Of a stretch of DNA of 64,000 nucleotides, positions 6,472 to 63,295 are shown one piece after another (within the stretch, counting starts at the first letter, position 1; each line of letters opens with the position of its first letter). This DNA is from Sphingomonadaceae bacterium. Lineage in GTDB: Bacteria; Pseudomonadota; Alphaproteobacteria; Sphingomonadales; Sphingomonadaceae. Where the stretch lies: contig JAFAZF010000011.1 of assembly GCA_019239915.1 (NCBI GenBank), positions 62,001 to 126,000 of the forward strand, read 5' to 3'. Under the pieces are notes generated by a model that did not search any database, was not told the DNA's origin, and was given only the letters and a program-made list of their open reading frames with translations. A program made the position numbers and the translations under genes.

Positions 6472-6553
6472 TCGTTCGTGCCGAGCGCAGTCGAGGCACG
6501 TCCGCGTACGGATCGCTTGGGGCACGTCCCTCGACTGCGCTCGGGACGAACGG
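6472..6553. repeat. Palindromic intergenic repeat, family A (copy 1), likely also a terminator
   Basis: Inverted repeat with arms near 6472-6501 and 6520-6552. The arms share the core CGAGCGCAGTCGAGG and its complement, with GTTCGT/ACGAAC ends. It is followed on the plus strand by several short T-runs (to about 6570). That would let it end motB transcription just before the flgA promoter. At least nine more or less diverged relatives occur in this window. Confidence 0.85.
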
Positions 6554-8832: not shown

Positions 8833-10956
8833 ATGGCCACGCAGGCAATCAACCGCAAGGTCTGGCTGAATGCGAGCAAGGGCGCGATCCTTCCGCTGGC
8901 GACGCTCGTGCTCGTGGCGCTGATGGTCGTGCCGATGCCGAGCTTCGTGCTCGATATCGGCTTCATCTCGAACATCATGATCAGCCTCGCGGTGCTGATG
9001 GTGGCGCTGAACGCCGCCAAGCCGCTCGATTTCTCGTCTTTCCCGACCGTGCTGCTGTTCACGACGCTGCTCAGGCTGGCGCTCAACGTCGCCTCGACCC
9101 GCGTCGTGCTCGTCAACGGCCACACCGGCGCGGGCGCGGCCGGCCATGTCATCGAGGCGTTCGGCAGCTTCCTGATCGGCGGCGACTATGCCGTCGGCCT
9201 GTTCGTCTTCGCGATCCTGATGATCATCAACCTCGTCGTCATCACCAAGGGCGCGGGCCGCGTCTCGGAAGTGTCCGCGCGCTTCACGCTCGATGCGCTG
9301 CCCGGCAAGCAGATGGCGATCGACGCGGATCTCAACGCCGGCCTGCTCACGCCCGACGAAGCCAAGGCGCGGCGTGCCGAAGTCGCGACCGAAGCGGACT
9401 TTCACGGTTCGATGGACGGCGCCTCCAAGTTCGTGAAGGGCGATGCGGTCGCCGGCGTGCTGATCCTCGCGGTCAACATCCTCGGCGGCCTCGTGCTCGG
9501 TGTCGTCAGCCATCACATGCCGATCGGCGAGGCCGCCAAGACCTATATCCAGCTCGCGATCGGCGATGCGCTCGTCGCGCAGGTGCCGGCGCTGCTGCTC
9601 TCGATCGCGGCCGCCGCGATCGTCACCCGCGTCTCATCGCCGCTCGATCTCTCGGGCCAGATCACGAGCCAGTTCGGCAGCCACAAGGCCTGGATTCCGG
9701 TTGCGGCGATCCTCACCATTCTCGGCCTGCTGCCCGGCATGCCGCACATCGTCATCCTGCCGGCCGCCGCGCTGGCAGGCTATACCGCGTGGAAGCTGCG
9801 CAAGGCCGATGCCGCCAAGCAGGCCGAAGCCGCTGTTGCCGCCGCCGCGCCTGCCGCGCCTGCGACCAGCCCTTCGGTGATCAACTGGGACGAGGTCTCG
9901 GACGGCGCCGCGCTCGGGCTCGAGCTTGGTTACGGGCTCATCGGACTCGTCGACGAACGCAAGGGCGCGCCGCTGATGGCGCGGATCACCGGCGTGCGCC
10001 GCCAGCTCTCCAAAGAGCTCGGGTTCGTCGTGCCGCTGGTGCGGGTGCGCGACAATCTGTCGCTCGGGCCCAACCAGTATCGCATCACCGTCGCCGGCGT
10101 CGCCTGCGGCGAGGACGAATGCTGGCCGGAAGATCTGCTCGCGCTCGATAGCGGCGATCTCGTCGGCACGGTCGAGGGCAAGAAGGTCAAGGATCCGAGC
10201 TTCGGGCTCGACGCGGTCTGGATCAGCCCGGACAAGCGCGGCGAGGCGGTGGTCGCGGGCTACACCGTCGTCGATCCCTCGACCGTGATCGCCACGCATC
10301 TCAACCAGCTCATCCAGCTCGCCGCCGCCGACCTGTTCGGCATGGACGAGGCGCAGAAGCTGCTCGACGCGCTGAAGGAGAGCGCGCCGCAGCTCGTCGC
10401 CGGGCTCACGCCCAATCCGCTGCCGCTCGCCAGCGTCGCCGCGCTCTGCCGGGCGTTGCTGGCCGAGGGCATGCCGCTCAAGGATTTCCGCCGCATCGCC
10501 GAGGCGATGGTCGAGGTCGCGCGTGACGAGAACGAGCCGGTCCGCCAGGTCGAGGCGCTGCGCCTCAAGCTCGGCGCGCTGATCGTGCAGACGATCGTGC
10601 CGGTGAAGATGCCGCTGCCGGTGATCACGCTCGATGCGCAGCTCGAGACGCTGCTCGCGCAGGCGGTCCGCGCCGGGCCGGGCGCGACGCACCCGTTCGA
10701 ACCGGCGCTCGCGAGCCGGCTGGTCGCCGCGATCAGCGAAAGCGCGGCGCCGCTCGTCAACCAAGCGCGCCGCTTCGCGATCGTCACGTCGCCGGTCGCG
10801 CGGCGTCCGCTCGCGCGGCTGATGAAGCCGCATCTCCCCGAGGTGCCGGTGATGAGCTTCCTCGAAATCCCCGACGGCAAGCCGGTCGAGGTGATGGCGG
10901 TGGTCGGCAACCCGCCGCCGCAGCTCACCGAGCCGACGCCGGCGTTGGCATCATGA
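8833..10956 (+). CDS. flhA: FlhA, flagellar type III export gate protein
   Basis: Central component of the flagellar protein export gate, 707 aa, the normal size. The N-terminal half has about eight membrane segments (residues roughly 18-330). It includes the FHIPEP-family regions TTLLRLALNVASTRVVL and RVSEVSARFTLDALPGKQMAIDADL. The C-terminal cytoplasmic half binds substrates and chaperones. An Ala-rich linker lies at about residues 333-350. The gene sits 4 bases after the transglycosylase and 33 bases before fliA, with no flhF or flhG between, unlike many proteobacteria. Confidence 0.96.
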   Translation: MATQAINRKVWLNASKGAILPLATLVLVALMVVPMPSFVLDIGFISNIMISLAVLMVALNAAKPLDFSSFPTVLLFTTLLRLALNVASTRVVLVNGHTGAGAAGHVIEAFGSFLIGGDYAVGLFVFAILMIINLVVITKGAGRVSEVSARFTLDALPGKQMAIDADLNAGLLTPDEAKARRAEVATEADFHGSMDGASKFVKGDAVAGVLILAVNILGGLVLGVVSHHMPIGEAAKTYIQLAIGDALVAQVPALLLSIAAAAIVTRVSSPLDLSGQITSQFGSHKAWIPVAAILTILGLLPGMPHIVILPAAALAGYTAWKLRKADAAKQAEAAVAAAAPAAPATSPSVINWDEVSDGAALGLELGYGLIGLVDERKGAPLMARITGVRRQLSKELGFVVPLVRVRDNLSLGPNQYRITVAGVACGEDECWPEDLLALDSGDLVGTVEGKKVKDPSFGLDAVWISPDKRGEAVVAGYTVVDPSTVIATHLNQLIQLAAADLFGMDEAQKLLDALKESAPQLVAGLTPNPLPLASVAALCRALLAEGMPLKDFRRIAEAMVEVARDENEPVRQVEALRLKLGALIVQTIVPVKMPLPVITLDAQLETLLAQAVRAGPGATHPFEPALASRLVAAISESAAPLVNQARRFAIVTSPVARRPLARLMKPHLPEVPVMSFLEIPDGKPVEVMAVVGNPPPQLTEPTPALAS

Positions 10957-15932: not shown

Positions 15933-16934
15933 GTGTTGATCGCGTCCCGTTTCCGTTCGGTCGGCTGGGTCTTCGCCTGCGCGCTCGCCGCGCTGGCCTG
16001 TTATCTCGTCTCGCTGCGCGTCGCTGCCAAGCGCGCGCAGCTTGATGGGATGGACGCGAGTATTATCGCGGCCAAGGAGGACATCGGCCGGCTCCAAACC
16101 GAGCTCGGTACGCGCAGCCGCCTCGTTCAGCTCGAGCGCTGGAATGCGGACGTGCTGTCGCTGCAGGCGCCGCAGGCGCAGCAATATGTCAACAACCCCG
16201 TCCAGCTCGCGAGCTTCGCGGCGCCGCCGCCCCCGCCTGTGCTGGCACCCGTTCTGGCGCCCACCGCGCCGCCGCAGGTCGAGCAGGCGGCGGCCGTCAC
16301 ACCGACGCCCGAACCCAAGATGATCGCAACGAGCTACAGTTCGGCGCCCGCCGTCGCCGCTGCCGCCGCGAGCGCGGCCGTTGTGACGAAGCCGGCCGCG
16401 AAAAAGGCCGAAAGCGCCGATGCCGCGCCCGCGAAGAAGCCCGCGGCAAAGAAGCCGATTGCCAAGGAGACGCTGGCGGACGCGGCGCCAGCGAAGAAGA
16501 AAGCGCGGAGCGACGCGAAGAAGGACGTCGGGCTCGCGTCCGCCGCACTCGCCAAGGCCAAGGCGAAGCTTGCCAAGACCGAGCTCGCGAGAGCCGATGT
16601 CAAGAAGAAGCCGGCGCACAAGACGACCGAGCTCGCCTCCGCGTCCGACAGGGCGAAGAAGGCCAAGGCGGCCAAGTCCCCGTCGGGGAGCGGGACGCGT
16701 CTCGCATCGGCCGACAAGAAGAAGGCCGGCAAATCCTCGGATACGGTGAAGCTCGCGTCCGCCACCAAGAAGAAGGGCGAGGAGCAGGCGACGCTGCGCC
16801 ACACCGCCATCGTCAAGGTCGGCCACGACAAGTTCGGCGACGCGCAGAAGGTGGCGCTGCTCGACGATCATGCGCTCGGCTCGATCGAGCGCGCTGCCCA
16901 CGCCGAATCGATGAGCAAGAAAAACCGTCCGTGA
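15933..16934 (+). CDS. ftsL: FtsL-position division protein with long Lys/Ala-rich tail
   Basis: Occupies the ftsL slot between rsmH and ftsI. The first 80 residues look like FtsL: short cytoplasmic end, one membrane helix (about 11-30), then a coiled-coil-like stretch (LDGMDASIIAAKEDIGRLQT and onward). After that come a proline-rich patch (PPPPPVLAPVLAP) and about 200 residues of Lys/Ala repeats such as AAPAKKPAAKK, resembling histone H1 tails. The total is 333 aa, against about 90-120 for typical FtsL. GAGGAG 9 bases before the GTG supports this start. The 4-base overlap with ftsI argues for a real in-frame gene. FtsL normally joins FtsB and FtsQ and activates FtsWI. Confidence 0.75.
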   Translation: MLIASRFRSVGWVFACALAALACYLVSLRVAAKRAQLDGMDASIIAAKEDIGRLQTELGTRSRLVQLERWNADVLSLQAPQAQQYVNNPVQLASFAAPPPPPVLAPVLAPTAPPQVEQAAAVTPTPEPKMIATSYSSAPAVAAAAASAAVVTKPAAKKAESADAAPAKKPAAKKPIAKETLADAAPAKKKARSDAKKDVGLASAALAKAKAKLAKTELARADVKKKPAHKTTELASASDRAKKAKAAKSPSGSGTRLASADKKKAGKSSDTVKLASATKKKGEEQATLRHTAIVKVGHDKFGDAQKVALLDDHALGSIERAAHAESMSKKNRP

Positions 16935-18724
16935 ACGCCCATACCGCCATAGCCGGAAGCGGGCTCGCCGCCCGCCCAGAACGCGTCAGGCTCGCGGGCC
17001 AGCGCCAGCAGTCGGTCGCGCTCGCGCACAACCGGCTGATGGTGATGATGCTGATCTTCCTCGGCGTCATAGCGCTGATCGCCGGGCGGCTCTTCTATCT
17101 AGCGATCTTCGGCGGCAACGGCGGCGCGATCAGCGCGCAGGACATCCTGCTGCCGCCGCGCGCCGACATTACCGATCGCAACGGCATCCCGCTCGCGCGC
17201 ACGATCGACATGTGGACGATCGGCATCCATCCCGATCAGCTCGTCAACCGCCCGCAGGAGGTCGCCGCCAAGCTCGCCGAGCTGCTCCCCGAGCGCAGCT
17301 ATGACGAGTATCTCGCGATCCTGAAGTCCAAGCGGAAATTCTTCTACCTGCGCCGGCGCGCGATGCCCGATCTCGTCGTCAAGGTGAACGCGATCGGCGA
17401 GCCGGCGATCGAGCTCGATCGCGAACCGCAGCGCGTCTACCCGCAGGCGACGCTTGCCGGCCCGGTACTCGGCTGGACCAATGTCGACGGCCATGGCGGC
17501 TTCGGCATGGAGAAGGTGCTCGACAAACGCCTCATCGATCCGGCGCTGCGTGGCAAGCCGGTCTCGCTCTCGATCGACAGCCGGGTGCAGGCCGCGCTCG
17601 AGCAGGAGCTCGGCGCCGCGAAGGACAAGTTCACCGCCGCAGCGGCGAGTGGGCTGGTGATGGACGTGCGCACCGGCGAGGTGATCGCGATGACGTCGCT
17701 GCCCGCGTTCAACCCGAACAATCCGGGCGCGACGCCGGTCGACAATCTCAAGAACAACATCACCCAATCGGTCTACGAGCTGGGCTCGACCTTCAAGATG
17801 ATCACCATCGCCAACGCCATGCAGAGCGGCGTGGTGACCAACATGGCGCAGAAGTACGACGCCACCGCGCCGCTCCATGTCGGCCGCTTCACGATCCACG
17901 ACGAGGAACCCGCGGGCCGCTGGCTGAACATCCCCGAGATGATCACCAAATCGTCGAACATCGTCACCGCGAGGATCGCCGACGAGCTCGGCGAGGCGCG
18001 CGAGGTCGCGATGTTCCGCAAGCTCGGCATGGACAAGGCGCCCGAGATCGAGCTCACCGCCAAGGCGCGGCCGCTGTGGCCGGCCTATTGGGGGCGCTCG
18101 ACGGTGATGACCGTCGGCTTCGGCCACGGCATCGCGGTGACGCCGCTCAACCTCGCGCTTGCCTATTGCGCGCTGGTCAACGGAGGCGTCTATCGCCCCG
18201 CGACGCTGCTCAAGCGCGGCCCCGAGAACCCGCTGCCCGCCGGCCGCCGCGTCATCTCGGAGACGACGAGCGCGCGCGTCCGCCAGCTCATGCGGCTGGT
18301 CGTGATGCCGATCGCGGACGGCACCGGCAAGAAGGCCGAGGTTCCCGGCTTCCGCCTCGGCGGCAAGACCGGCACGGCCGAGAAGGCGCAGGGCGGCGGC
18401 TACAACAAGAAGCTCAACGTCTCTACCTTCGCGGGCGCCTTCCCGATGGACAACCCGCACTACCTCGTGATGATGACGCTCGACGGCCCGCACGCCACCG
18501 CCGACACCTATGGCTGGACGACGGCGGCCTGGGTGGTCGGCCCGGCGATCGGCAGGATGGTCGCGCGGATCGGTCCCTTGCTCGGCGTCTACCCCGATCT
18601 GCACAAAGATGTGGATGAAAGCGATCTTCTGCCGCTGATCTGGCACGCACCGGTTGACCGCAAAGCGGCACGGACGACAGATGTCCAGGCCGGCGCGGCG
18701 GCGGCGCGAAAGGACCGGGACTGA
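16931..18724 (+). CDS. ftsI: FtsI (PBP3), septal peptidoglycan transpeptidase
   Basis: Cross-links septal peptidoglycan with FtsW. The protein is 597 aa with one membrane helix (about residues 36-60), a dimerisation region, and a transpeptidase domain. The domain has all three penicillin-binding motifs: S286-T-F-K289 (active-site Ser286), S341-S-N343 and K479-T-G-T482. The start is a GTG overlapping ftsL. GFGHGIAVTPLNLALAYCAL is conserved in class B PBPs. The stop is 3 bases before murE. Confidence 0.96.
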   Translation: MNAHTAIAGSGLAARPERVRLAGQRQQSVALAHNRLMVMMLIFLGVIALIAGRLFYLAIFGGNGGAISAQDILLPPRADITDRNGIPLARTIDMWTIGIHPDQLVNRPQEVAAKLAELLPERSYDEYLAILKSKRKFFYLRRRAMPDLVVKVNAIGEPAIELDREPQRVYPQATLAGPVLGWTNVDGHGGFGMEKVLDKRLIDPALRGKPVSLSIDSRVQAALEQELGAAKDKFTAAAASGLVMDVRTGEVIAMTSLPAFNPNNPGATPVDNLKNNITQSVYELGSTFKMITIANAMQSGVVTNMAQKYDATAPLHVGRFTIHDEEPAGRWLNIPEMITKSSNIVTARIADELGEAREVAMFRKLGMDKAPEIELTAKARPLWPAYWGRSTVMTVGFGHGIAVTPLNLALAYCALVNGGVYRPATLLKRGPENPLPAGRRVISETTSARVRQLMRLVVMPIADGTGKKAEVPGFRLGGKTGTAEKAQGGGYNKKLNVSTFAGAFPMDNPHYLVMMTLDGPHATADTYGWTTAAWVVGPAIGRMVARIGPLLGVYPDLHKDVDESDLLPLIWHAPVDRKAARTTDVQAGAAAARKDRD

Positions 18725-18727
18725 CAG

Positions 18728-20143
18728 GTGAAGCTCGGCGCGCTCATCGGAACAAGTGACGAGACGAGCGTGACCGGGTTCGCGATCGACCATCGCAAGG
18801 TCGCGCCGGGCACAGTGTTCGGCGCGTTCCCGGGCGCACGGTTCAACGGCGAGGACTTCATCGCGCCGGCGATCGCGGCAGGTGCGGTGGCGGTCGTCGC
18901 GCGGCCCGAGGCGGATGTCGCCGGCGTCGTCCACGTCACCGACGGCGAGCCACGGCGCGCCTTCGCCCGCATGGCGGCGAAGTTCTTCGCGCCGTTCCCG
19001 GAGACGGTCGTCGCCGTCACCGGCACCAACGGCAAGACCTCGACCGTCGAGCTCACCCGCCAGCTATGGCGGATGGCGGGGCATCATGCCGCCTCGATCG
19101 GCACGCTCGGCGTGACGACGGCGGACGATCAGGTGAGCACCGGACTGACGACGCCCGACATCGTCACCTTCCTCGCAAACGTGGCCGGGCTGCGGCGCGA
19201 GGGGGTGAGCCATGTCGCGTTCGAGGCGTCGAGCCACGGACTCTCGCAGTTCCGCACCGAGGGGCTGCCCGTGAAGGCGGCGGCGTTCACCAATCTCAGC
19301 CGCGATCATCTCGATTATCACGGCACGATGGAGGCCTATCTCTAGGCCAAGCTGCGGCTGTTCACCGAGGTCGTCGATCGCGACGGTACCGCGGTGGTGT
19401 GGGCCGACGACAAGGCGAGCCCGAGGGTAATCGAGCTCGCACGCGAGCGCGGCCTTTCGATCATCGACGTCGGCACGCGCAGGGAGGCGCTGAGACTTGT
19501 CGATCGCGAGGCGACGCAGCTCGGCCAGACGCTCAAGCTTCAGTATGGTGGCGTTGCTTATACCGTGAAACTGCCGCTGATCGGCGCCTATCAGGCCGCG
19601 AACGCGCTCGTCGCGGCGGGTCTCGCGATCGCGACCGGCGGCGAACCCGCGCAGGTGTTCGCGCATCTGGCAAGGGTCCAGCCGGTGCGTGGTCGGCTCG
19701 AGCGCGCCGCGATCAGCCGCGCCGGCGCGCCGATCTACGTCGATTATGCCCACACGCCCGACGGGCTCGAGGCGGCGATCGCGGCGCTCAAGCCGCATGC
19801 CAAAGGGCGGCTGCTCGTCGTGTTCGGCGCCGGCGGCGATCGCGACAAGGGCAAGCGGCCCGAAATGGGTGCGGTCGCGGCGCGGATGGCCGATCGCGTC
19901 ATCGTCACCGACGACAATCCGCGCACCGAGGACGCCGCCGCGATCCGCCGCGAGGTGCTCGCCGGCGCGCCCGGCGCGATCGAGATCGGCGGGCGGCGCG
20001 AAGCGATCGCCGCCGGCATCGAGGAGGCGGGCGGCGACGACATCGTGCTCGTCGCCGGCAAGGGCCACGAGCAGGGCCAGATCGTCGGCGACATCGTGCT
20101 GCCGTTCGACGACGTCGCCGTGGCGCAAGAGTGCGCGGCGTGA
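18728..20143 (+). pseudogene. murE: MurE (UDP-MurNAc-tripeptide synthetase) reading frame interrupted by an in-frame amber codon
   Basis: MurE adds meso-diaminopimelate to UDP-MurNAc-L-Ala-D-Glu in the cytoplasm. The full frame is 472 codons. The ATP loop GTNGKTS (residues 99-105) lies in the first part. The second part has the DAP-specific DNPRTED motif and a GKGHEQGQ end. Codon 206 is TAG at 19343-19345, inside a well-conserved stretch reading YHGTMEAYL*AKLRLF, and the same frame continues intact on both sides. The two open parts are 18728-19345 and 19346-20143 (next GTG at 19394). The break is in the catalytic domain, so neither half should work alone. Since murE is essential and no second copy is visible here, a sequencing error, readthrough, a suppressor tRNA or a second copy elsewhere must be considered. 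GTG start. Confidence 0.9.
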
Positions 20144-20156
20144 GGGGTCTCTCCTT

Positions 20157-20244
20157 GGTACGTCTCTCGACTACGCTCGGGACGAACGGTGTCTTGCTGA
20201 ATCCTCAGATTCCGTTCGTCCCGAGCGTAGTCGAGGGACGTGCG
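20157..20244. repeat. Palindromic intergenic repeat, family A (copy 3), nearly perfect
   Basis: Two 33-base arms (20157-20189 and 20212-20244) are almost exact reverse complements, with core TCGACTACGCTCGGGACGAA and a 22-base spacer. It separates murE from murF, which are usually adjacent or overlapping. It is the best-preserved copy in the window. Confidence 0.93.
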
Positions 20245-20258
20245 ACCGGAAGCGCGGC

Positions 20259-21644
20259 ATGACCGCGCTCTGGACATCATCCGAGATTGCCGAGGCGACG
20301 GGCGGGAACGCCTCGGCAGAGTTCCGTGCAAGTAGCGTTGCGTATGATTCCCGCGAGATCGGCCCTGGCGACCTGTTCGTCGCGCTGAAGGGCGAGAGTA
20401 CCGATGGCCACCGCTTCGTCGACGGCGCGTTTGCCGCCGGCGCGGCGGGGGCCATCACCTCCATTCCCGTCGACCATCCGCATGTGCTGGTCGGTGATAC
20501 CGCCGCCGCGCTCGATGCGCTCGGCCGCGCCGGCCGCGCGCGGACGCAGGCGAAGATCATCGGCGTCACCGGCTCGGTCGGCAAGACCGGCACCAAGGAG
20601 GCGCTGTGGGCGGCGCTCGATCGCGCCGCACCTGGCCGCGCGCACCGCTCGGTCAAGAGCTACAACAATCATGTCGGCGTGCCGCTCAGCCTCGCGCGGA
20701 TGCCCGCCGCGACGCGCTTCGGCGTATTCGAGATGGGCATGAACCATGCCGGCGAGCTCGACGCGCTGACGAAGCTCGTCCGCCCGCATGTCGCGATCGT
20801 CACCGCGATCGCGCCGGCGCATTCGGCCTTCTTCTCGGGCGAGGAGGCGATCGCCGACGCCAAGGGCGAGATCTTCCGCGGCCTCGAACCCGGCGGCACC
20901 GCGATCGTGCCGTGCGACAGCCCGCATCGCGATCGGCTGATCGCCGCCGCCAAGCCCTATGCCAGCCGGATCTGGACGTTCGGGCGCGGGCAGGGCGCCG
21001 ACGTTCGCGCTGTCGAGGCGATGCCGACCGCCAACGGCACGCTGATCTCGGCGGTGCTGCCGGAGGCGGAGCTGACGTTCACGCTGGCATTGCCCGGTGC
21101 GCACTGGGTCTCGAACGCGCTCGCCGTGATCGCGGCGGTCGAGGCGGCGGGCGGCGATCTCGCGGCGGCTGGCCTCGCGCTTTCGGAGATCGAGGGACTG
21201 GCGGGGCGCGGCCGGCGCATCCGCGTCCCGCTCGAGGACGGCGAGGCGCTGATCGTCGACGAAAGCTACAACGCCAACCCGGCCTCGATGGCGGCGACGA
21301 TCGCCTTGCTCGGGCAGGAGAAAGCCGTGCGGCGGCTCGTGCTGCTTGGCGAGATGCGGGAGCTGGGGGAGGGCTCGCGCGGCTATCACGCGGCACTCGC
21401 CGGTCCGCTCGAATCGGCCAACGTGGATTATGCACTGCTCGTCGGCGAGGAGATGAAATCGCTCGGCCAAGCGCTTGAAGGCCGCATTGATTTCGATCAT
21501 GCGCCCGACGCTGCAGCCGCGAAAGACGTGATGGCGAAGATGCTTCGCCCGGGGGACGCGCTGCTCATCAAGGGATCCAACGCCATCGGGCTCTCGCGCG
21601 TGGTGGAGGCGTTGTCGCGCGGGACGGTGGCATGCTCTATCTGA
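20259..21644 (+). CDS. murF: MurF, UDP-MurNAc-tripeptide:D-Ala-D-Ala ligase
   Basis: Adds D-alanyl-D-alanine to complete the murein pentapeptide precursor. The protein is 461 aa from ATG 20259. The N-terminal domain contains [20 protein letters not shown], then the ATP loop [11 protein letters not shown] (about residues 106-116) and [10 protein letters not shown]. The C-terminal domain includes [18 protein letters not shown]. The start lies 14 bases after the family A repeat. The end overlaps mraY by 13 bases. Confidence 0.95.
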
Positions 21645-22705
21645 TCGCCGAGCAGCTCGGCTTTCCGCATCTTCTCAACCTCGTCCGCTACATCACGTTC
21701 CGCGCGGGCGCCGCCGCGATCACCGCGCTGCTGATCGGGCTGGTGATCGGGCCGCGTTTCATCGGCTGGCTGCGCGTGCGCCAGGGCAAGGGCCAGCCGA
21801 TCCGCTCCGACGGCCCGCAGACGCACCTCGCCAAGCGCGGAACGCCGACAATGGGCGGGCTGATGATCCTCGCCGCGCTCGCGCTTTCGATGCTGATCTG
21901 GATGGATCTCACCAGCCGCTTCACCTGGGCGGTGCTGGGGGTGACGATCGGCTTCGGCCTGATCGGGTTCATGGACGATTATGACAAGGTCAAGAAGCGC
22001 AGCCACAAGGGCGCTTCGGCCAAGCTCAGGCTGGTGCTTGAATTCGGCATCGCAGGCGCGGCGAGCTGGCTGATCGTTCAGGCGGCCGGCACGCATCTCT
22101 ACGTGCCCTTCTACAATGGTGCGGTGATCGATCTGACCTATTGGGGCTATATCCCGTTCGCGGCGTTCACGATCGTCGCGTTCGGCAATGCGGTGAACCT
22201 CACCGACGGGCTCGACGGGCTCGCGACGATGCCGGTCGTCATCGCCTGCCTCGCTTTCTTCGTGATCGCCTATCTCGTCGGCAACCTGAAGTTCGCAACC
22301 TATCTCGGCATCCCGCACGTGCCGGGAGCGGGCAATCTCACTATCGTGTGCGCCGGCATCATCGGTGCCTGCCTCGCCTTCCTCTGGTTCAACGCGCCGC
22401 CCGCCGCCGTCTTCATGGGCGATACCGGAAGCCTCGCGCTCGGCGGCGCGCTCGGCGCGATCGCGGTCGCGACGCACCACGAAATCGTGCTCGGCATCGT
22501 CGGCGGGTTGTTCGTGATGGAAGCGCTCAGCGTCATCATCCAGGTGTTCTTCTACAAGCGCACAGGCAAGCGCGTCTTCAAGATGGCGCCGATCCATCAT
22601 CATTTCGAGCAGCTCGGCTGGAGCGAGCCGACGGTTGTGATCCGCTTCTGGATCATCGCCTTCATCCTCGCGCTCGCCGGGCTCGCGACGCTGAAGCTCA
22701 GATGA
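21632..22705 (+). CDS. mraY: MraY, phospho-MurNAc-pentapeptide translocase
   Basis: Transfers phospho-MurNAc-pentapeptide to undecaprenyl phosphate, making lipid I at the membrane. The protein is 357 aa with about ten membrane helices. Conserved segments are [21 protein letters not shown] (Asp-rich catalytic loop), [13 protein letters not shown], and [11 protein letters not shown] with the HHH motif. The ATG lies within the end of murF and the stop overlaps murD by 4 bases. Confidence 0.97.
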
Positions 22706-36930: not shown

Positions 36931-38097
36931 ATGACGGGTCTCGCTCCCTATGCCAGCGATCCGGGGAAGACTCGCGGTCGGCTCCACGTCGAACCCGGCG
37001 GTGAGACGCGCGGGCCGCGTGACGCTTTCCAGCGCGATCGCGATCGCATCATCCATTCGATCGCCTTCCGGCGGCTCAGGCACAAGACGCAGGTGTTCGT
37101 CGCGCCCGACGGCGACCATTTCCGCGTGCGGCTCACGCACAGCCTCGAGGTCGCGCAGATCGCGCGGACGATTGCGCGTGCGCTCGGCCTCAACGAGGAC
37201 CTGACCGAGGCGCTCGCGCTGGCGCACGATATCGGCCACCCGCCGTTCGGCCACTCCGGCGAGGAGGCGCTCAGCGCCGCGATGGCGAGCGCGGGCGGCT
37301 TCGATCACAACGCCCACACGCTGCGCATCCTGATGCGGATCGAGGCGCCCTATCCCCGCTGGCGGGGGCTCAATCTCTGCTGGGAGACGCTAGAGGGGCT
37401 GGCCAAGCATAACGGCCCGGTCACCGCGCCGTCCTGGGCGATGATCGAGGCGGACGCCGCCTTCGGCCTCGAGCTCGACAGCTGGCCGAGCCTCGAGGCG
37501 CAGGTCGCCGCGCTCGCGGACGACATCGCCTATGACAATCACGACATCGACGACGGCCTGCGCGCCCGCCTGCTCGACATCGAACGGCTGCGGCAGGAGC
37601 CGTTCGTAGCGCGGCATTGGCAGGCGGTGCTGCGCCGCTATCCCGACGTCGCGCCCGAGCGGCTGCACCGCGAGCTGGTCCGCGACCAGATCGGCACGAT
37701 GGTCAACGACCTGATCGAGACGACGCGGGCGACGCTCGCCGATGCCGGCATCGCCAGTGCCGATGCGGCGCGGCGGGCCGGGCGGCCGCTCGTCGGCTTC
37801 TCGCCTTCGCTGGCGGCGGAGGAGAAGGCGCTCAAGCGCTTCCTTTACGCGAACGTCTATCATTCCCGCGCACAGCGCGAGGTGGCGTCGGTGGCGCGGC
37901 CGATCGTGACGCGGCTGTTCGGGGCCTATGTCGCCAACCCCGCGCGGCTGCCCTCCGGCTGGTACGCGACGCTGCCGCGCGACGCCGCAGGCCGCGTCCG
38001 CCACATCGGCGACTTCATCGCCGGCATGACCGACCGCTATGCGATCGCCCGCCACGAGGAGCTGATCGGTCCGGTGGCGCTGCCGGAGGGGTTTTAG
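36931..38097 (+). CDS. dgt: Deoxyguanosinetriphosphate triphosphohydrolase-like HD protein
   Basis: Hydrolyses dNTPs, releasing triphosphate. The protein is 388 aa from ATG 36931. HD-domain residues are visible in FRRLRHKTQVF, RLTHSLEVAQIARTIARAL and LAHDIGHPPFGHSGEEAL, with the paired His and Asp metal ligands. ADDIAYDNHDIDDGLRA is the later family motif. A longer frame begins at ATG 36847 within the repeat. I prefer 36931 because MTGLAPYA starts family-like sequence. It is upstream of argS by 153 bases. Confidence 0.92.
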   Translation: MTGLAPYASDPGKTRGRLHVEPGGETRGPRDAFQRDRDRIIHSIAFRRLRHKTQVFVAPDGDHFRVRLTHSLEVAQIARTIARALGLNEDLTEALALAHDIGHPPFGHSGEEALSAAMASAGGFDHNAHTLRILMRIEAPYPRWRGLNLCWETLEGLAKHNGPVTAPSWAMIEADAAFGLELDSWPSLEAQVAALADDIAYDNHDIDDGLRARLLDIERLRQEPFVARHWQAVLRRYPDVAPERLHRELVRDQIGTMVNDLIETTRATLADAGIASADAARRAGRPLVGFSPSLAAEEKALKRFLYANVYHSRAQREVASVARPIVTRLFGAYVANPARLPSGWYATLPRDAAGRVRHIGDFIAGMTDRYAIARHEELIGPVALPEGF

Positions 38098-58672: not shown

Positions 58673-59701
58673 CTACGCAGCCGCGGCGGCGGACGCCAGC
58701 CCGAAGGCGCGTGCGACCAGCTCGTAGCTGCGCACGCGTGCGGCATGATCGGGCAGGATGTTGACGAGCATCACCTCGTCCGCGCCGTACAGCCGTGCGA
58801 CCGCTTCGATCTCCATGCGGACCTGTTCGCCGGTGCCGAGCGTCATCCGCCGCCGGCGCCGGGAGGCATGCGGATTGGCCTCCGTCCAGGCGATCGCCTC
58901 TTCGACCGACGGCACCGCAATCAGCTGCCCCTGCAGCATGTGCGCGAACATCATAACCGAGGGCAGAGCCAGCCGCTCGGCCTCGGCCAGCGTCGGCGCG
59001 GCGATCGCCCAGGTCGCGACCATCACGTAAGGCGAGGCGAGCATCGCCGAGGGTCGGAAGACGCGCCGGTAATGCTGCGTGAGCTCGGCGCCGTCGGAAT
59101 TGATGAAATCGGCGAAGCAATAGGGCAGTCCGGCCTCGGCCGCCCAGCGCGCGCTGTCCGGCGAGGAGCCGAGCAGCCAGAGCGCGGGTGCGCCGCCGCC
59201 CGCCGGCAACGTCGCCCGCAGCGCTGCGAAGGGATGATCGTCGGGCAGGCCGCCACCGGGCGCGAGATAGGCGATCAGCTCCGCGAGCTGATTGGGAAAG
59301 TCGTCCGAGGGAATGCGCCGCGAGCGATCGCGCTGGAGCGCGAAGGCGGTGCGCTGATCGCTGCCGGGAGCGCGACCGAGGCCGAGATCGATGCGCTCGG
59401 GCGCCAACGCGCTCAGCAGGCTGAAGGTCTCGGCGACCTTGAACGGAGAATAATGCGGCAACATGATCCCGCCCGAGCCGACGCGGATCTGCCGCGTGGC
59501 GAGCGCGATCGGCCCGATCAGCGCCTCGGGCGCGGCGCCGGCGAGGCTAGGCGTGGCATGATGCTCGGCGAGCCAATACCGATGGTAGCCGAGCGCATCG
59601 CAGCTACGCGCGAGATCGAGCGTGTTGCGCACCGCCTCCGTCGCCGTGCTGCCCGCCGCGATCGGCGACTGGTCGAGAACGGAGAGGATCGGCGACGCCA
59701 T
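58673..59701 (-). CDS. Luciferase-like flavin monooxygenase (LLM family)
   Basis: A 342-aa TIM-barrel protein. The N-terminus reads SVLDQSPIAAGSTATEAVRNT and YHRYWLAEHHATPSLAG, the pattern of the MsnO8-like LLM subgroup. VGSGGIMLPHYSPFKVAE and RIDLGLGRAPGSDQRTAFAL follow; both are near-universal in it. It binds FMNH2 and oxidises unknown substrates. No flavin reductase gene is adjacent. ATG at 59701-59699. Confidence 0.9.
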   Translation of the reverse strand: MASPILSVLDQSPIAAGSTATEAVRNTLDLARSCDALGYHRYWLAEHHATPSLAGAAPEALIGPIALATRQIRVGSGGIMLPHYSPFKVAETFSLLSALAPERIDLGLGRAPGSDQRTAFALQRDRSRRIPSDDFPNQLAELIAYLAPGGGLPDDHPFAALRATLPAGGGAPALWLLGSSPDSARWAAEAGLPYCFADFINSDGAELTQHYRRVFRPSAMLASPYVMVATWAIAAPTLAEAERLALPSVMMFAHMLQGQLIAVPSVEEAIAWTEANPHASRRRRRMTLGTGEQVRMEIEAVARLYGADEVMLVNILPDHAARVRSYELVARAFGLASAAAAA

Positions 59702-62489: not shown

Positions 62490-63295
62490 CCATCCGCACC
62501 ATCCTCGTCGACGATGAGAGCCTCGCCATCCAGGGCCTCGAGCTCCGGCTCCACGCCCACGACGACGTCGAGATCATCGATCGCTGCACCAACGGGCGCG
62601 AGGCGATCCGCGCCATCAAAACGCACAAGCCGGACCTCGTCTTCCTCGACATCCAGATGCCGGGCTTCGACGGCTTCTCCGTGATCCAGGGTCTGATGGA
62701 GGTCGAGCCGCCGCTCGTCGTGTTCGTCACCGCCTATACGGATCATGCGATCCGGGCGTTCGAGGCGCAGGCGCTCGGCTATCTCATGAAGCCGGTCGAG
62801 GAGGACAAGCTCGCGGCGACGCTCGATCTCGTCCGCACGCGCCTGTCGGAAAAGCGAGCAGTCGAGGAATCGGCCAAGCTCAAAGAAGCGCTCGCCGAGC
62901 ATGCGCCCGAGGCGGCCGAGGCGATGGCCGAAGCTGGCGGCGGCGACGATGCGCCCGCCTCGAACCGCTTCGAGAAGCTGATCAACATCAAGGATCGCGG
63001 CCAGATTTTCCGCGTCGACGTCGACACGATCGAGCGGATCGACGCCGCCGGCGACTATATGTGCATCTATACCGGTGACAACACACTGATCCTGCGCGAG
63101 ACGATGAAGTTCCTCGAGAAGCGGCTCGATCCGAGGCGCTTCCAGCGCGTTCACCGCTCGACGATCGTCAACCTCGACCTTGTCCGCCAGGTGAAGCCAC
63201 ACACCAACGGCGAATGCTTCCTGGTGCTCGAGAGCGGTGCGCAGGTGAAGGTCAGCCGATCCTATCGCGATGTGGTGGCGCGCTTCGTGCACTAG
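62486..63295 (+). CDS. LytTR-family response regulator
   Basis: A 269-aa regulator. The receiver domain has RTILVDDESLAIQGLELRL and the phospho-acceptor Asp55 in LVFLDIQMPGFDGFSVI. An Ala/Glu-rich linker (about residues 130-165) connects it to a LytTR DNA-binding domain. The latter has IDAAGDYMCIYTGDNTLILR and FQRVHRSTIVNLDLVRQVKP. LytTR proteins bind imperfect direct repeats, so sites upstream of the neighbouring MFS or own genes should be sought. Coupled to the kinase by an ATGA overlap. Confidence 0.93.
   Translation: MTIRTILVDDESLAIQGLELRLHAHDDVEIIDRCTNGREAIRAIKTHKPDLVFLDIQMPGFDGFSVIQGLMEVEPPLVVFVTAYTDHAIRAFEAQALGYLMKPVEEDKLAATLDLVRTRLSEKRAVEESAKLKEALAEHAPEAAEAMAEAGGGDDAPASNRFEKLINIKDRGQIFRVDVDTIERIDAAGDYMCIYTGDNTLILRETMKFLEKRLDPRRFQRVHRSTIVNLDLVRQVKPHTNGECFLVLESGAQVKVSRSYRDVVARFVH

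Follow-up and report, generated by a model that had tools for sequence, protein, structure and literature searches.

An in-frame amber codon in the murE gene of a draft sphingomonad genome, most likely carried by the base call

Introduction

The draft genome of a Sphingomonadaceae bacterium carries a single in-frame TAG within murE, a gene generally thought essential in bacteria. Judged from its sequence, the gene appears otherwise normal and selectively maintained, and the TAG presents itself as an isolated single-codon interruption. We consider it probable, with a likelihood of about 60%, that the TAG is a base error or a minority or mixed variant in the draft consensus, and we infer that the change is most likely carried by the base call and not by the organism. 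An error in the assembly sequence, which the first-pass annotation had named beforehand as the alternative that would refute a real stop, seems to offer the best fit. Under this explanation, a base error or a minority or mixed variant would have entered the consensus of the 85-contig draft at codon 206 of murE, while the living cell would have a sense codon at this position and would make ordinary MurE. The essentiality of the gene, the single occurrence of the stop and the draft state of the genome favour it; failing such an error or variant, a very recent nonsense mutation is the next candidate.

The murE Reading Frame and Its Interruption

The window, that is the whole stretch of 64,000 nucleotides that was analysed, comprises positions 62001-126000 of contig C45. 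The genome is a 3.6-Mb draft in 85 contigs, estimated to be 98.06% complete and 1.09% contaminated. The murE frame extends from 18728 to 20143 on the forward strand, with a GTG start 3 bases past the upstream ftsI-like gene and a TGA end. Reading this frame from start to end confirmed the annotated TAG at 19343-19345 on the forward strand, equal to 81343-81345 of C45. It is codon 206 of 471 in the frame that opens with the GTG at 18728 and closes with the TGA at 20143; murE is thus not a single uninterrupted open frame. Two codons further on comes the family motif's conserved Ala-Lys.

In order to score the product against profiles, an X was placed at codon 206. The product matched the NCBIfam model TIGR01085 with 442 bits (cut-off 257.3) and the equivalog model NF001124 with 606 bits (cut-off 476), both at full length and above the curated cut-offs, which bears out the MurE identity and the intact frame on both sides of the stop. 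The Pfam domain Mur_ligase_M extends over residues 97-300 and spans codon 206, so that the break, annotated as lying in the catalytic domain, indeed falls within the central domain. The N-terminal piece of 205 amino acids (18728-19345, forward strand) holds Mur_ligase and the first half of Mur_ligase_M (profile positions 1-103 of 200). The C-terminal piece of 249 amino acids (19394-20143, forward strand), counted from the first downstream in-frame start, a GTG, holds profile positions 121-200 of Mur_ligase_M together with Mur_ligase_C.

Selection on Both Sides of the Stop

When murE was compared with 10 relatives, dN was far below dS on either side of the stop in every comparison (upstream dN 0.079-0.135 and dS 0.497-0.805; downstream dN 0.166-0.249 and dS 0.549-0.839). 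The downstream-to-upstream ratio of non-synonymous differences was 1.34-2.07 here versus 0.80-2.15 among the relatives themselves (median 1.47, 45 pairs), and the C-terminal non-synonymous excess of this murE is therefore inside the relatives' own range. Near-invariant columns were retained at 84 of 84 positions upstream and 94 of 97 downstream of the stop; at least three such changes downstream occur in 7 of 110 rows, this murE included. The three downstream losses may point weakly to relaxed selection or to additional base errors; apart from that, neither dN/dS nor the near-invariant columns gave support for decay of the gene past the stop.

Codon 206 in Relatives

The comparison set of 109 homologues consists of 29 loci (30 minus the copy of the window itself) and 80 sequences from named genomes, and holds at least one genome twice (L010 and L131). 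None of the 109 has a stop at column 206, whereas an evolutionarily kept read-through site would show the same stop in at least two genomes. The column itself accepts Ala (35), Thr (29), Glu (26), Asp (11), His (3), Asn (2), Arg (2) and Cys (1), and is Glu in all eight murE copies from the same genus; the ninth same-genus genome (G008) has no murE match. The earlier description of the site as a conserved stretch is therefore apt for the motif but not for column 206, where eight residue types are found. The Ala, Lys, Arg and Leu of the motif are invariant in the 109 homologues and fall within codons 207-222; the Lys of the YEAAK motif is presumably the carbamylated lysine of the MurE enzyme. 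The only homologue among the 109 with an internal stop is that of a Sphingomonadales metagenome bin (L133), a TAA at column 270.

A family-wide search returned a murE match in 387 of 397 genomes and, among the matches listed, no stop in any murE row except that of this genome. Nearly all family genomes show a single murE match, and at least four of the 397 (G114, G307, G380 and G417) show two. In one single-contig genome (G016; completeness 86, contamination 7) murE is found in three pieces, in different stretches, at C1:508124-509489, which looks as in an assembly with frameshifts. The nearest MurE relatives among the named loci belong to Sphingomonas and related genera. With about 81% protein identity to the nearest relative, a recent stop is not datable from these data.

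Neighbouring Genes and Copy Number

The neighbours of murE on the forward strand are intact: a penicillin-binding transpeptidase gene (ftsI-like, 16931-18724) lies upstream, and murF (20259-21644) and mraY (21632-22705) lie downstream. At the near-invariant columns of nearby cell-wall genes, odd residues are not in excess (0 of 92, 0 of 78, 1 of 108, 1 of 151, 1 of 122 and 1 of 90), and the internal stop marks in the murF alignment represent the natural C-terminal end (25 of 80 rows, columns 452-458 of 461). Between murE and murF, at 20160-20241, lies a 35-nt inverted repeat with 91% complementarity and a 12-nt loop, and a similar repeat pair is present at 6477-6548 of the window. The core of the repeat, with up to 3 mismatches, has 4 matches in the window versus none in 100 shuffles, and the element looks like a dispersed palindromic repeat.

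The Mur_ligase_M profile finds four places in the genome, namely murE with its one TAG and three others without stops, which are probably murF and, by their position in the cluster, murD and murC. The annotation of murE as single-copy is borne out within the assembly, and the second murE that had been proposed as an escape was not found by this search of the 3.6-Mb, 85-contig draft. An SSU rRNA search returned nothing in this genome, nor in four same-genus genomes including a one-contig genome, so that the absence is uninformative as to whether the draft is a metagenome bin.

Reading of UAG in This Genome

The release factor gene prfA (RF1) scores 482 bits (cut-off 423.25) and has no internal stop; the loss or gross change of RF1 that would accompany a reassignment of UAG is thus not seen. 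Among 381 long ORFs from the sequence examined, the terminators are TGA (260), TAG (78) and TAA (43), which makes TAG, at about a fifth, the second commonest. The earlier statement that TGA or TAA closes the other genes was mistaken: within the window, the genes for a dGTPase (ending at 38097), a luciferase-like oxidoreductase (reverse strand, ending at 58673) and a response regulator (ending at 63295) all end in TAG. In the sequence scanned, the codon is neither rare as a terminator nor recurrent inside conserved genes, as a reassigned codon would be.

A CTA anticodon was found in none of the 40 tRNA genes that ARAGORN called at 41 RF00005 places, one of which (L058, 575-657) is an extra and weak-looking gene; the tRNA set of the draft is incomplete. 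The tRNA model has 41 matches here versus 45, 49 and 48 in three same-genus genomes, and tRNAs for Asn, Ile(GAT), Ala(TGC) and Leu(TAA) are missing from the ARAGORN list. A crude tRNA-like TCTA pattern gave 134 matches versus 226 in a reversed control, with no CTA-anticodon tRNA among the matches listed. The suppressor tRNA suggested earlier as an escape has thus been searched for within this incomplete set and not found. At about 400-470 of L154 (C33:8300-9200) lies a truncated tRNA, by eye of Pro type, which the model matches at positions 9-63 only; ARAGORN does not call it, and its 5' end seems to have been replaced. Taken together, recoding of UAG in this genome appears unsupported, and the sequence evidence speaks against a recoding system.

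Interior Stops Elsewhere in the Draft

A coding-potential scan covered C45 plus 400 kb drawn from four further contigs (588,668 bases) and called 11 stops, among which that in murE is the only interior one; for the other 10 the best Pfam stretches on one side represent a gene end followed by the next gene in frame. Of 10,246 sites in long ORFs the scan would detect 7,385, or about 72%, and of the two interior stops known elsewhere in the genome it would call one and miss the other; it replaced an earlier, looser scan of C45 with 25 calls. In 200 kb of the sister genome G004 the same scan gave 4 stops, as raw calls before Pfam sorting. An alignment of C45 with 200 kb of G004, in which only 17 queries aligned and synteny was too short, pointed to murE and to a spurious overlapping frame containing 3 stops.

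Searches by domain family yielded 30 matches and no stops for ABC transporters, 19 and one for TonB receptors, and 110 and one for short-chain dehydrogenases, while the same families in G004 gave 38, 70 and 36 matches and no stops. Clean interior stops hence number 2 of 159 here versus 0 of 144 in G004, which points to isolated stops as a trait of this draft that is not linked to TAG. Both further stops are TAA in otherwise open frames of non-essential families: one lies in a TonB-dependent receptor (L186, C42:191500-195500) at contig position 193146, and the other in a short-chain dehydrogenase (L187, C41:8500-13500) at contig position 9231. A tRNA-Glu-like 3' fragment occurs at C42:195557, about 2.4 kb from the TAA of the receptor gene, which resembles the border of an integrated element. 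Interior stops in the draft are rare, scattered and not amber-specific. Against the argument from a trait of the draft stands the fact that the two TAA stops sit in families in which real pseudogenes are ordinary.

Weighing the Explanations

A base error or minority variant competes mainly with a genuine and very recent nonsense mutation, in which basal near-cognate misreading of UAG would supply a little full-length MurE. We hold such a mutation to be unlikely, if clearly ahead of the remaining candidates. With eight or more residue types tolerated at column 206, nearly every amino acid that might be inserted ought to serve, and the surroundings of the stop are clean in a sequence that, judged by the neighbours' columns and the stop scan, is otherwise good. 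That murE has the only interior stop in 588,668 bases, with clean neighbours, fits a real mutation equally well, and the three near-invariant changes downstream, with none upstream, may point weakly to relaxed selection or to more base errors. In-frame stops are also reported to be widespread in bacterial genes, mostly short-lived and under purifying selection (Belinky et al. 2021; PMC7918605). On the other hand, the cell requires MurE in quantity, and lower expression of the genes behind murE would be expected from the stop. With RF1 intact and TAG ending about one in five long ORFs, termination at UAG should be efficient. A TAG present in one genome only is, moreover, the very case that this study sets aside as possible sequencing error. 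The sequence alone does not separate a consensus error or variant from a genuine recent mutation, and we favour the former.

A second murE without the stop, or an unbroken allele from a mixed population, could be absent from the assembly, as is conceivable for a draft with 98.06% completeness and a tRNA set with gaps; this seems improbable to us, given that it is the interrupted murE that sits in the cell-division and cell-wall cluster and that family genomes nearly all have a single match. Still less probable is an amber-suppressor tRNA reading UAG as an amino acid. It could have been missed with the rest of the incomplete tRNA set, but neither the ARAGORN genes nor the listed TCTA-pattern matches include a CTA anticodon, the other two clean stops are not amber, and suppression would extend many proteins, with TAG so common as a terminator. 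Least credible of all is a two-piece MurE, in which the N-terminal 205 residues would work together with a C-terminal piece made by restart. An in-frame GTG is available at 19394, 17 codons past the stop; the cut, however, lies within the central domain, codons 207-222 with the most conserved motif residues would be left out, no relative examined is split at codon 206, and no promoter-like site was found in 19300-20300. By the domain map, a downstream restart, as envisaged in the first-pass annotation, would yield a product missing the N-terminal half of MurE, in which the ATP-binding motif lies.

If the favoured base error is correct, the case shows that a lone stop within an essential gene, when met in a draft genome, should not be taken for biology without the reads. 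Should the stop be real, which we think doubtful, a free-living sphingomonad would carry an amber codon at a tolerant residue of its only murE and obtain enough MurE via misreading of UAG or via a tRNA missing from the draft. Such a strain would be a naturally occurring hypomorph for an essential gene of the cell wall, and a natural test of the minimum read-through that an essential enzyme needs and of whether a tolerant stop position decides survival.

Comparison With Known Systems

With amber suppression and UAG reassignment, including the pyrrolysine system, this murE shares a UAG within a reading frame; it differs in that no CUA tRNA was seen, RF1 is present, TAG is a common terminator and the other stops are TAA. 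The isolated stops of Belinky et al. (2021) are likewise single, in frames under purifying selection and without a second lesion. In order to exclude sequencing error, those authors kept only stops common to at least two genomes (PMC7918605), whereas the TAG in murE occurs in a single one. As for the enzyme, a UDP-MurNAc-L-Ala-D-Glu:meso-diaminopimelate ligase, the product has the same set of Mur_ligase, Mur_ligase_M and Mur_ligase_C domains as the MurE family of TIGR01085 and NF001124, with a full-length family match. The position of the stop aligns within the ...YEAAK... segment of E. coli MurE (1e8c), from which this gene differs by the one TAG at codon 206, and its TDDNPRTED segment aligns with the E. 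coli enzyme (1e8c and related chains).
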